Shown piece after piece: positions 1,820-63,747 of a stretch of 64,000 bases of DNA. Position numbers and translations under genes: made by a program. Within the stretch, counting starts at the first letter, position 1, and each line of letters starts with the position of its first letter. The DNA comes from Methylomarinovum caldicuralii (GTDB lineage Bacteria; Pseudomonadota; Gammaproteobacteria; Methylococcales; Methylothermaceae), in NCBI RefSeq assembly GCF_033126985.1, contig NZ_AP024714.1, positions 310,001 to 374,000 on the forward strand, in the 5' to 3' direction. A model generated the notes under the pieces. That model saw only the letters and a list, made by a program, of their open reading frames with translations, did not search any database and was not told the DNA's origin.

Positions 1820-3200
<1,381 letters not shown>

Positions 3201-3202
3201 AG

Positions 3203-3334
3203 AAAAAGCCCCTGTCGCAATGCTGGCATGATTGCCCTTGTGGCGCATCTTGTTCTCGTGATGAGAATGCCGCCAGGGTGCTTATGGCCTGGGTCATGGA
3301 ACAGATTGGCAGCCGGGAACCGGCCGAGGCGTGA
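3203..3334 (+). pseudogene. C-terminal remnant of a TnpB-family (IS200/IS605-type) protein
   Basis: Immediately after the ntrC stop, one frame reads CWHDCPCGASCSRDENAARV and then LMAWVMEQIGSREPAEA before a stop. The paired cysteines followed by SRDENAAR match the zinc ribbon and the third RuvC acidic motif (the D of RDxNAA) at the C-terminus of TnpB, the RNA-guided nuclease of IS200/IS605 elements. No start codon or upstream RuvC/WED domains are present: the preceding bases belong to ntrC. This is therefore a stranded 3' fragment of about 44 codons. Its identification rests on motif recognition only. Confidence 0.65.
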
Positions 3335-3572
3335 AGGGAGGTAAGACCGGCGAGCCTTCCGGGCAATCCGGCGCTCCCGTAAAATCGCGAAACTCGCGCC
3401 ATACCGTTATGGTTGGTGGGAGTCGTTCATTGCAGCAAGCGGTTTTTGTTCTTCAAAAGTCAGCGGGCACGGGGCATGGAAGGACGCTTGATCGTCCAAC
3501 CGCGCTCAGAGCAGCCACGGCGGTAGCGGAAACAGGGATTCCTGGCTGAAGGCAGGAAGGGCAGGAGAAGAA
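3335..3572. other. intergenic remnant region after TnpB fragment
   Basis: No convincing gene. It contains two small perfect inverted repeats: CGCGA-aac-TCGCG and CCATA-ccgt-TATGG, about 50-80 bp after the tnpB remnant stop. The 3' end of tnpB plus the element's right end is normally the source of the guide (omega) RNA, so these hairpins may be relics of it. A 72-codon open frame here on the plus strand has no family resemblance and looks spurious. Confidence 0.35.
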
Positions 3573-3646
3573 TGGAGGCGGCGGTCGGAATCGAACCGGC
3601 GTACACGGCTTTGCAGGCCGCTGCATAACCACTCTGCCACGCCGCC
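3573..3646 (-). tRNA. tRNA-Cys (GCA)
   Basis: The minus strand folds as a 74-nt cloverleaf: acceptor GGCGGCG pairing with CGCCGCC, D arm with AGAGUGGUU, anticodon loop CUGCAAA (anticodon GCA), T arm GGUUCGAUUCC, encoded 3' CCA. It is transcribed after the tRNA-Gly gene on the same strand, 48 bp away. Confidence 0.95.
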
Positions 3647-3654
3647 TTGAGAAC

Positions 3655-3678
3655 AGAAGAAAAAAGCCGCATGGCGGC
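3655..3678 (-). terminator. possible hairpin plus T-run between the two tRNA genes
   Basis: On the minus strand GCCGC-cat-GCGGC is followed directly by TTTTTTCTTC. The short stem and U-run fit a weak intrinsic terminator or attenuator between tRNA-Gly and tRNA-Cys. Tandem tRNA genes are usually cotranscribed, so it may instead be a processing spacer. Confidence 0.35.
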
Positions 3679-3694
3679 GGCTTCTTCCTGAAAC

Positions 3695-3770
3695 TGGAGC
3701 GGGAAACGGGACTCGAACCCGCGACCCCAACCTTGGCAAGGTTGTGCTCTACCAACTGAGCTATTCCCGC
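3695..3770 (-). tRNA. tRNA-Gly (GCC)
   Basis: A 76-nt cloverleaf on the minus strand: acceptor GCGGGAA with UUCCCGC, D arm AGCUCAGUUGGUAGAGC, anticodon loop UUGCCAA (anticodon GCC), T arm GGGUUCGAGUCCC and encoded CCA. It reads toward tRNA-Cys, a pairing common in gammaproteobacteria. Confidence 0.96.
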
Positions 3771-3838
3771 GTTGAACGACGTGCTATTTTAAGCACCAGC
3801 GATTTTCTGTCAACCCCGATTTTCATAAGGAGGTGACC

Positions 3839-4381
3839 ATGACCGATCCGGCCTGCAACAAATTCCGCCTGGTCAAGGGCGACATCACCCGCATGGAAGT
3901 GGACGCCATCGTCAATGCCGCCAACTCCTCCCTGCTGGGTGGCGGGGGCGTGGACGGCGCCATCCACCGGGCCGCCGGCCCCGAACTGCTGGAAGAATGC
4001 CGCAAACTGGGCGGCTGCCCCACCGGCAAGGCCAAGGCGACCCAAGGCTACCGCCTGCCGGCCAAATACGTCTTCCACGCCGTCGGCCCGGTGTGGCACG
4101 GCGGCGACCGGGGCGAGGACGAACTGCTGGCCTCCTGTTACCGCGAATGCCTGCATTTGGCAAAGCAATACGGCGTCCGCACCCTCCCCTTTCCCGCCAT
4201 TTCCTGCGGCGCCTACGGCTTTCCAGTGGAGCGGGCGGCGCGCATCGCCATCCGCACCCTGCGCGAAGGACTGCAAAGCCAGCCGCAGATCGAGGCGGTG
4301 TATCTGGTATGCTTCGACGATCATACCTATCGCGCCTACCGCCAAGCCCTGAAGGAGGAATGCCCCGATGCCCTCGATTGA
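3839..4381 (+). CDS. macrodomain ADP-ribose-binding protein / O-acetyl-ADP-ribose deacetylase
   Basis: A 180-residue single macrodomain protein of the YmdB/MacroD type. The signature [18 protein letters not shown] begins at Asn26 and includes Asp39, the position of the catalytic aspartate of Ymd[13 protein letters not shown] is the second phosphate-binding loop. The family removes acetyl from O-acetyl-ADP-ribose or ADP-ribose from proteins. A GTG six bases upstream is also in frame, but it overlaps the strong AAGGAGG ribosome site (3827-3833), which is correctly spaced for the ATG at 3839. Its end overlaps the aminopeptidase gene by 14 bp, so the two are probably cotranscribed. Confidence 0.9.
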
Positions 4382-61480: not shown

Positions 61481-61754
61481 GATCTCTGACAGTGAAAGGG
61501 TGACTATTATCTTTGAAACCGACCGCGACTACAAAAAATGAACTCCCGCCCGACCGACACCACAATCCAGGACGCGCCCAAGAAAAAGCATATGGATATA
61601 AAAAATTGCCATCTGCATGACTGGCAGAAAAAACAGAACAGGTCCGTGTATCACAGGCGAGTGAGATGTTCAGCTAACGAACATTGAGACTCGATCACAA
61701 CCAAACAGGCCGAAAGGCAACCTACAGTATTGATTTCAAACAGGAGATACGATC
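61481..61754. other. region between argS and the first repeat-protein gene
   Basis: No gene. From about 61563 it is the 5' part of the first 590-bp unit; its first 60 bases differ from units 2 and 3, then identity is complete. It holds an inverted repeat at 61666-61684 and the CAGGAG ribosome site before ATG 61755. A/T-rich stretches (TATGGATATaaaaaat near 61590) could supply a promoter. Confidence 0.6.
61666..61684. promoter_or_regulatory. inverted repeat upstream of repeat-protein gene 1
   Basis: ATGTTC-agctaac-GAACAT, a perfect six-base inverted repeat with a seven-base centre, 70 bp before the ATG. It recurs at 62256-62274 and 62846-62864 in the other units. It could be an operator or a hairpin in a long leader. 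Confidence 0.4.
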
Positions 61755-62069
61755 ATGACCAAGACCATCACTGCACTGACCGCCGCTATCGTGGGTTTGA
61801 CTCTGGCTTCTGGCGCCATGGCTGCCGGCTCCACAATCAAGAACTCGACTATCACCAACAAGTCCACGGTCAAAAACGCCGCCAACCTCGCCATCAGCAC
61901 AGGGGTAGGAAAGGCGGAAGCCAACCAGGGCAGCATCAAGATCAAACGCTCCACGGTCAAGAATTCGACCATCACCAACAAGTCCACGGTCAAAAACGCC
62001 GCCAACCTCGCCATCAGCACCGGCCTCGGCAGCACCAAGGCCAACCAAGGCTCAGTCGACATCGAATAA
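61755..62069 (+). CDS. secreted 40-residue-repeat protein, copy 1
   Basis: A 104-residue protein: 24-residue signal peptide (MTKTITALTAAIVGLTLASG then AMAA, cleavage after AMA) plus two 40-residue repeats. Each repeat runs S-T-[IV]-K-N-S-T-I-T-N-K-S-T-V-K-N-A-A-N-L-A-I-S-T-G ... A-N-Q-G-S-[IV]-x-I. Regular Asn, Ser/Thr and beta-branched residues at short intervals suggest stacked beta strands (solenoid or amyloid-like), with no Cys and no enzyme motif. The family is not known to me. CAGGAG precedes the ATG by eight bases. A hairpin follows the stop. Confidence 0.85.
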   Translation: MTKTITALTAAIVGLTLASGAMAAGSTIKNSTITNKSTVKNAANLAISTGVGKAEANQGSIKIKRSTVKNSTITNKSTVKNAANLAISTGLGSTKANQGSVDIE

Positions 62070-62083
62070 TCAGGAAACGTAAC

Positions 62084-62101
62084 GAGGCCAAGGATGGCCT
62101 C
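62084..62101 (+). terminator. hairpin downstream of repeat-protein gene 1
   Basis: GAGGCCA-AGGA-TGGCCTC, a perfect 7-bp stem with a four-base loop, 15 bp after the stop; a T-run (gatttttt) follows about 20 bp later. It recurs at 62674-62691 and, with one base changed, at 63264-63281. It could be a weak terminator or an mRNA-stabilising hairpin. Confidence 0.45.
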
Positions 62102-62344
62102 AACCACACGGACACGACCTCTGATTTTTTCCTTAAATTTGGTCGGTAAGCCATAATCCAGGCCATACCAAGAAAAAGCATATGGATATGATAAATAGTT
62201 ATCTATATGACTGACAGAAAAAACAGAACAGGTCCGTGTATCACAGGCGAGTGAGATGTTCAGCTAACGAACATTGAGACTCGATCACAACCAAACAGGC
62301 CGAAAGGCAACCTACAGTATTGATTTCAAACAGGAGATACGATC

Positions 62345-62659
62345 ATGACCAAGACCATCACTGCACTGACCGCCGCTATCGTGGGTTTGACTCTGGCTTC
62401 TGGCGCCATGGCTGCCGGCTCCACAATCAAGAACTCGACTATCACCAACAAGTCCACGGTCAAAAACGCCGCCAACCTCGCCATCAGCACAGGGGTAGGA
62501 AAGGCGGAAGCCAACCAGGGCAGCATCAAGATCAAACGCTCCACGGTCAAGAATTCGACCATCACCAACAAGTCCACGGTCAAAAACGCCGCCAACCTCG
62601 CCATCAGCACCGGCCTCGGCAGCACCAAGGCCAACCAAGGCTCAGTCGACATCGAATAA
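62345..62659 (+). CDS. secreted 40-residue-repeat protein, copy 2
   Basis: Encodes the same 104 residues as copy 1 without any substitution: signal peptide and two 40-residue repeats ending NQGSVDIE. It has the same ribosome site and hairpins. With copies this alike, gene dosage rather than variation seems to be the effect of amplification. Confidence 0.85.
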   Translation: MTKTITALTAAIVGLTLASGAMAAGSTIKNSTITNKSTVKNAANLAISTGVGKAEANQGSIKIKRSTVKNSTITNKSTVKNAANLAISTGLGSTKANQGSVDIE

Positions 62660-62673
62660 TCAGGAAACGTAAC

Positions 62674-62691
62674 GAGGCCAAGGATGGCCTC
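62674..62691 (+). terminator. hairpin downstream of repeat-protein gene 2
   Basis: Same GAGGCCA-AGGA-TGGCCTC stem-loop as in unit 1, 15 bp after the stop. Confidence 0.45.
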
Positions 62692-62742
62692 AACCACACG
62701 GACACGACCTCTGATTTTTTCCTTAAATTTGGTCGGTAAGCC

Positions 62743-63263
62743 ATAATCCAGGCCATACCAAGAAAAAGCATATGGATATGATAAATAGTTATCTATATGA
62801 CTGACAGAAAAAACAGAACAGGTCCGTGTATCACAGGCGAGTGAGATGTTCAGCTAACGAACATTGAGACTCGATCACAACCAAACAGGCCGAAAGGCAA
62901 CCTACAGTATTGATTTCAAACAGGAGATACGATCATGACCAAGACCATCACTGCACTGACCGCCGCTATCGTGGGTTTGACTCTGGCTTCTGGCGCCATG
63001 GCTGCCGGCTCCACAATCAAGAACTCGACTATCACCAACAAGTCCACGGTCAAAAACGCCGCCAACCTCGCCATCAGCACAGGGGTAGGAAAGGCGGAAG
63101 CCAACCAGGGCAGCATCAAGATCAAACGCTCCACGGTCAAGAATTCGACCATCACCAACAAGTCCACGGTCAAAAACGCCGCCAACCTCGCCATCAGCAC
63201 CGGCCTCGGCAGCACCAAGGCCAACCAAGGCTCGATCGACATCGAATGATCAGGAAACGTAAC
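62743..63263 (+). repeat. tandem repeat unit 3 (partial, diverges after the gene)
   Basis: Third unit, matching units 1 and 2 through the coding region, then diverging: single changes at the C-terminal codons (aGTC to gATC, TAA to TGA), and after the hairpin the sequence becomes the 5' end of the fourth gene instead of a new unit. Confidence 0.9.
62935..63249 (+). CDS. secreted 40-residue-repeat protein, copy 3
   Basis: 104 residues, identical to copies 1 and 2 except near the end (NQGSIDIE instead of NQGSVDIE) and with a TGA stop rather than TAA. It is the copy directly before the diverged paralogue, 54 bp away, and so may be nearest to the ancestral arrangement. Confidence 0.85.
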   Translation: MTKTITALTAAIVGLTLASGAMAAGSTIKNSTITNKSTVKNAANLAISTGVGKAEANQGSIKIKRSTVKNSTITNKSTVKNAANLAISTGLGSTKANQGSIDIE

Positions 63264-63303
63264 GGGGCCAAGGATGGCCTCGTCTTCCTTGGAGGATCTC
63301 CCC

Positions 63304-63747
63304 ATGCGGACACGAATTCTGATTTTCCTTATAAGCATCGGCCTGGCATTCGCCGGAATAAAAACCGTTCTCGCAGCCGGCTCCAAAATCAAGAACTCGA
63401 CCGTCACCAACAAGTCCACGGTCAAGAACGCCGCCAACCTCACCATCAGCGGCGCCGGCAAAGCAGAAGCCAATCAAGCTAGCATCCAGGTCAAAGGCGC
63501 CCGTCTGAATAACGTCACAGTCATCAATCGGGCCAAGGTCACCAATTCCGCCAACGTCGCCATCAGTGCAGGCGGCAGTGCCCGGGCCAATCAGGGATCG
63601 GTGGTAATCAAGCGATCTCTGAACGGAGTGACTATCGTAAACAACGCTAACATCAAGAATTCTGCTAACATCGCTGTAGATGCCATGGGAATTGGCGGTT
63701 TATTGGGCACCAACGAATCCAATCAGGGTTCTATTGTGATTAAATGA
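63304..63747 (+). CDS. secreted repeat protein, diverged three-repeat paralogue
   Basis: A 147-residue protein: 25-residue signal peptide (MRTRILIFLISIGLAFAGIK then TVLAA), then three repeats of 39, 39 and 44 residues following the same plan, each ending [AS]NQ[AG]S[IV]x[VI]K. The first repeat (KIKNSTVTNKSTVKNAANLT) is closest to the 104-residue proteins; the later two have drifted (for example VTIVNNANIKNSANIAVDAM). GGAGG stands eight bases before the ATG. An in-frame ATG at 63274 is less likely. Function unknown; surface or matrix structure is a guess. Confidence 0.85.
   Translation: MRTRILIFLISIGLAFAGIKTVLAAGSKIKNSTVTNKSTVKNAANLTISGAGKAEANQASIQVKGARLNNVTVINRAKVTNSANVAISAGGSARANQGSVVIKRSLNGVTIVNNANIKNSANIAVDAMGIGGLLGTNESNQGSIVIK

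Follow-up and report, generated by a model that had tools for sequence, protein, structure and literature searches.

A tandem array of genes for small exported repeat proteins, adjoined by a remote CsgG homologue in Methylomarinovum caldicuralii, as candidate source of a curli-like surface fibre or matrix

The genome of M. caldicuralii IT-9 is one contig of 2,694,844 bp, of which positions 310001-374000 were analyzed here (the whole stretch of 64,000 nucleotides, called the window). Close to its end, three tandem genes for a small exported subunit form the head of an operon-like cluster that extends past the window end. The features are listed below with their coordinates in the window or, where L005 is given, in the locus that continues beyond it.

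61642-61663 (block) and about 61658-61693 (hairpin), plus strand: leader of copy 1, with the conserved block GTCCGTGTATCACAGGCGAGTG and the hairpin
61755-62069, plus strand: subunit gene copy 1, 104 aa, signal peptide and two 40-aa repeats
62083-62102, plus strand: GC-rich inverted repeat GAGGCC-N-GGCCTC after copy 1, repeated after copy 2 at 62673-62692
62104-62128, plus strand: junction relic of 25 nt with 84% identity to the 5' end of the fourth gene (63302-63326), found again at 62694-62718
62232-62283, plus strand: leader of copy 2, same block and hairpin
62345-62659, plus strand: subunit gene copy 2, 104 aa, protein identical to copy 1
62822-62873, plus strand: leader of copy 3, same block and hairpin
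62935-63249, plus strand: subunit gene copy 3, 104 aa, V102I
63304-63747, plus strand: fourth gene, a three-repeat paralogue, 147 aa from an ATG with GGAGGA ribosome site
From 63763 past the window end (L005:2763-3113), plus strand: small exported protein, 116 aa
L005:3133-4809, beyond the window and 0.9 kb downstream of copy 3: CsgG-like lipoprotein, 558 aa

The initial annotation had described three tandem 590-bp units for small exported proteins that are identical save one residue, and this was confirmed by the gene positions and by self-comparison of the window sequence at a lag of 590 bp. The region 61,625-63,233 is perfectly periodic, with a single run of 1,019 bp without mismatch (61,625 to 62,643). 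The divergence previously seen at the array start is found in the flank upstream of copy 1 (61,541-61,624), and copy 3 is indeed altered, having a distinct 3' end with the V102I exchange and a TGA stop. The proposed 3' hairpin exists as the inverted repeat listed above; however, its reading as a canonical intrinsic terminator after each subunit copy is unsupported, because the repeat at 62083-62102 lacks a T-run on the plus strand.

The perfect identity of the copies, and the presence of a single two-repeat gene in the sister species, would also fit an assembly artefact, or a neutral and transient duplication without function. However, the genome is one contig, and copies 1 and 3 have unique ends. 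The IT-9 genome was read with MiSeq and PacBio (PMC10950024), hence the reads would bridge the 1.8-kb array. Considering in addition the independent arrays in other genomes described below, we regard it as extremely unlikely that the three-fold array is artefactual or without function, and the partial assembly artefact that had been considered before is likewise unlikely. A phage origin and a plasmid origin were rejected, since neither a PHROGs search nor a plasmid comparison gave a match.

Each subunit consists of a signal peptide and two 40-aa repeats encoded by a 120-bp tandem repeat. The mature protein (81 aa, pI 10.4) is rich in Thr, Ser, Asn, Ala and Lys and contains neither Cys nor aromatic residues. 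On sequence grounds, the subunits are not curlins: three curlin patterns taken from PMC10192328 (X6QX10Q and published variants) found no match in them, the profile comparison with curlin gave E 0.92, and PF07012 (curlin) has no match anywhere in the genome. The AlphaFold2 model of the subunit is mostly beta at low confidence (pLDDT 58.7) and found no fold match in the PDB, which also contained no useful sequence relatives of the subunit or of the exporter. In this regard, a published study (PMC11795689) states that AlphaFold2 over-predicts solenoids for repeat proteins. For some subunits of relatives there are hits to left-handed beta-helix families (lowest E 3e-7), which, together with a DUF2807 head-GIN protein in the neighbourhood, would speak for a monomeric or low-order left-handed beta-helix coat or adhesin at the surface that does not polymerise. 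However, the window subunit reaches 16.1 bits against the left-handed beta-helix profile and stays under the Pfam cut-off of 23.3, and its two 40-aa repeats would give a very short, open-ended solenoid, which we infer to favour stacking. Such a non-polymeric coat appears therefore highly improbable.

Every tandem subunit copy has its own 5' element, in which the block GTCCGTGTATCANAGGCGAGTG is followed by the hairpin. Among 13 genomes searched, the block (up to 3 mismatches) was present only before subunit genes. The hairpin arms vary between species, yet pairing is kept in several. Folding z-scores of about -3.6 to -2.7 were obtained for the leaders of the array genome (G000), the sister species (G009) and one copy of G005; because they are near zero in some other genomes or copies, a structured RNA in the leader is suggested and not asserted. 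No Rfam family matched the leader up to E 5. It might be possible that the leader serves as regulatory or mRNA-stabilising element.

Downstream of the array, the fourth gene begins at 63304 when read from its ATG and at 63274 in the list of open reading frames. Its product is 64% identical to the array subunit over the matched part and might represent a minor subunit or nucleator. The gene of the small exported protein is always found immediately 5' of the CsgG-like gene; comparison of its product with CsgF and CsgE gave probabilities of 5% and 2%, respectively, values from small alignments that still leave room for remote homology. The CsgG-like gene is followed by genes for a 101-aa BamE-like lipoprotein (weak match), an OmpA-domain protein and a DUF2807 protein, and the cluster further contains genes for a 155-aa protein, a Wzy_C (O-antigen-ligase-type) protein and an autotransporter barrel. 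The fourth paralogue and the operon-like cluster had been overlooked in the initial annotation, and the two-repeat structure of each protein is a further correction to it. Downstream of the cluster, an IS-type transposase-like ORF was recognized by eye (L005:9610-10746, minus strand), next to a gene whose 1,047-aa product combines Sel1 repeats with a coiled coil and a Peptidase_C14 (caspase-like) domain (L005:10818-13961, minus strand).

The 558-aa lipoprotein is composed of an N-domain without annotation, a PG_binding_1 domain (E 0.0016, below cut-off) and a DUF4384 domain (E 6.7e-24), and the lipobox Cys is invariant. When profiles of 16 CsgG-like and 29 CsgG-family sequences were compared with HHalign, the N-domain matched CsgG with a probability of 96.5%, E 7.7e-10 and a score of 71 over 183 columns, the 60 column-shuffled controls scoring at most 25; a smaller comparison, in which 6 CsgG-family sequences were used, had been no more than suggestive (E 9e-4, probability 23%). 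Judged from these profiles, the N-domain and the curli exporter CsgG are remotely homologous. The CsgG-like fold rests on the profile comparison, since the AlphaFold2 model of the CsgG-like protein (from three sequences) left the N-domain unresolved. Pfam CsgG (PF03783) matched neither the 558-aa lipoprotein nor any other protein of the genome, hence a canonical curli system elsewhere in the genome was rejected, PF07012 being equally without match.

The conservation of this gene arrangement was examined in a set of 41 relatives, the named ones being Methylothermaceae and Methylococcaceae MAGs. Of the 41, 11 carry the subunit, and these 11 are also the ones in which the CsgG-like N-domain was found, while in a twelfth relative (G036) the match was confined to DUF4384. 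The subunit and CsgG-like genes adjoin in the relatives, except in the fragmented G011. In Methylococcales, the gene order is subunit(s), small protein, CsgG-like protein, lipoprotein, OmpA and DUF2807; the OmpA and DUF2807 neighbours were also seen in other classes. Outside the Methylococcales, CsgG-like homologues preceded by genes for exported repeat proteins are also present in further orders and classes of the Pseudomonadota. Matches to the CsgG-like protein were obtained in 45 of 201 order-level, 8 of 369 class-level and 29 of 398 phylum-level genomes, many of them to DUF4384 only. The subunits of the array are homologous to those of G907, G838 and G218 (HHalign 98%); against the subunits of the most distant loci the HHalign probability was below 1% and homology was not detected, for which reason we make no claim of a common ancestry of all subunits. 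Some CsgG-like loci have no recognizable subunit upstream.

Relatives carry one to three subunit copies, and tandem exported repeat proteins are also encoded upstream of distant exporters: G271 and G907 have three, G016, G834, G867, G909, G156, G482 and G545 have two, and G438 and G447 have two with a remoter paralogue. Tandemly duplicated DNA (150 bp or more at a lag of 200-1,500, within 3.5 kb upstream of the CsgG-like gene) was found at 18 of 38 loci, which include close relatives and do not equal 18 independent events; downstream of the gene it was found at none of the 38. The tandem copies of G018, G271 and G016 have their own synonymous differences, which again argues against an artefact or a neutral transient duplication, as do the three copies in G907 and G271 and the restriction of duplications to the upstream side. 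The 12 codon differences between the two subunit copies of G018 are all synonymous, and copies 2 and 3 of G271 differ by 17 synonymous and 2 nonsynonymous codons, hence the copies are maintained as proteins under purifying selection. G018 harbors in addition a second, diverged CsgG-like gene adjoined by two diverged repeat-protein genes (L095, G018:C130; features at 1680-2885 and 2944-3387 on the minus and 3479-3913 on the plus strand). In G004, two contigs (C296 and C216; L039 and L040) both end inside a subunit gene. Breaks of this kind commonly point to a tandem array that the assembly could not resolve, hence G004 probably carries at least two subunit copies as well.

The history of the array can be traced by comparison with the sister species G009, which has one two-repeat subunit copy and the three-repeat paralogue. 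Relative to the single copy of G009, copy 1 of the array has 3 differences among 130 leader positions, 17 among 312 coding positions and 28 among 126 positions of the upstream flank, thus the leader is better conserved than the coding region. Between the array copies there are 0 differences over the periodic stretch (0 of 1,019 at lag 590), in line with the earlier view of a recent or recombination-homogenised amplification. The relic of the fourth gene at the junctions, taken with the identity of the copies versus the divergence from the sister species, suggests that an older first duplication reached into the fourth gene and that re-amplification or gene conversion followed after the species split. 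M. tepidoasis IN45 has a 2.42 Mbp chromosome and a plasmid and shows an ANI of 92.94% to M. caldicuralii IT-9 (PMC10950024). IT-9 probably lacks cellulose synthesis because bcsA is broken by a transposon, and IN45, putatively the single-copy relative G009, has cellulose genes (PMC10950024). It is conceivable that the amplified subunit array of IT-9 compensates for a loss of cellulose.

We consider it likely from these sequence comparisons that the protein encoded by the array is the major subunit of a curli-like system forming surface fibres or a matrix. This reading is favoured because of the CsgG homology, the co-occurrence and adjacency of subunit and exporter genes, the conserved cluster with OmpA and DUF2807, the upstream tandem repeat proteins, the purifying selection, the beta-rich prediction and the left-handed beta-helix matches in relatives. 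Against it weigh the profile-based assignment of the exporter fold, the low-confidence subunit model, the negative results for curlin motifs and for CsgE and CsgF, the single copy of the array gene in the sister species and those CsgG-like loci that have no recognizable subunit upstream. The original proposal that the product is structural, as part of a surface, matrix or fibre, has thus gained support from the conserved neighbouring CsgG homologue, the signal peptides and the low-confidence beta prediction. The proposed function is drawn from the biology of CsgG (PMC3521004) and HfaB (PMC6707917). Sec would export the subunits, and the CsgG-homologous lipoprotein pore would take them across the outer membrane, being anchored to peptidoglycan by its PG_binding_1 and DUF4384 domains and by the neighbouring OmpA-domain protein. 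Outside the cell, the 40-aa repeats might fold as stacked beta-strands and then polymerise into a possibly amyloid fibre. The three-repeat paralogue would act as minor subunit or nucleator that starts the polymerisation of the two-repeat major subunit, and the small protein encoded beside the pore gene could be a CsgE/CsgF-like adaptor. With a leader on each tandem copy, more copies may provide more subunit supply, and unequal recombination would gain, lose and homogenise copies. That the product is needed in bulk, as supposed earlier, is plausible from the recurrence of tandem copies in many genomes; however, the sister species has a single copy of the array gene, hence a high dosage is not essential.

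A similar pore could also serve a surface anchor instead of a fibre. In such an HfaABD-like system, the CsgG/HfaB-like pore would export repeat proteins, and a surface patch would tether exopolysaccharide. HfaA is CsgA-like, HfaB is CsgG-like, and the localisation of HfaA and HfaD requires HfaB (PMC6707917); moreover, the Wzy_C protein is kept in the clusters of several relatives. However, it is missing from other clusters, and the tandem subunit amplification points to a bulk product. We therefore regard an anchor as unlikely and prefer the curli-like fibre or matrix.

In the open-access literature we found no paper that joins CsgG with DUF4384 or DUF4384 with amyloid, or that ties DUF4384 or DUF2807 to CsgG-like proteins, while a description elsewhere is possible. 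The locus probably codes for a curli-like fibre or matrix system that has so far escaped recognition, and its layout recurs in many other bacteria. Curli systems are usually sought via curlin repeats and canonical CsgG, both of which fail at this locus; hence secreted fibre systems that are invisible to current annotation may exist in a considerable number of bacteria, among them methanotrophs. We see an even chance that the Pseudomonadota possess a widespread and so far undescribed class of fibre systems that depend on CsgG, defined by a CsgG-PG_binding-DUF4384 exporter with OmpA partner and by sequence-diverse non-curlin beta-repeat subunits, whose genes are repeatedly tandem-amplified and homogenised and in Methylothermaceae carry a conserved and possibly structured leader on each copy. 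The loci supply an exporter and partner set for further work, and the relatives with one to three subunit copies permit a comparison of dosage. If the mature subunits polymerise, such 81-aa proteins from a moderate thermophile, free of Cys and aromatic residues, would be useful fibre building blocks.

Among known systems, the Caulobacter holdfast anchor HfaABD resembles the locus in combining the CsgG-like HfaB with HfaA, a CsgA-like multimerising surface protein; in contrast, the neighbouring genes differ and no HfaD-type gene was identified, in a comparison made by published description (PMC6707917). From curli the locus differs in several respects. The array subunits have no match to curlin motif or profile and contain two 40-aa repeats instead of at least five repeats of about 23 aa, their genes stand in tandem arrays, the exporter bears PG_binding_1 and DUF4384, and CsgE and CsgF were not detected in the comparison with the small protein. 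The functional amyloid Fap of Pseudomonas is likewise built from exported imperfect-repeat subunits that have a dedicated exporter, the outer-membrane protein FapF, whereas the exporter candidate here is a CsgG homologue. The likeness to curli lies in the gene of a CsgG-homologous outer-membrane lipoprotein that adjoins genes for exported imperfect-repeat subunits, in the presence of major-like and minor-like paralogues, and in the small-protein gene immediately before the exporter gene.
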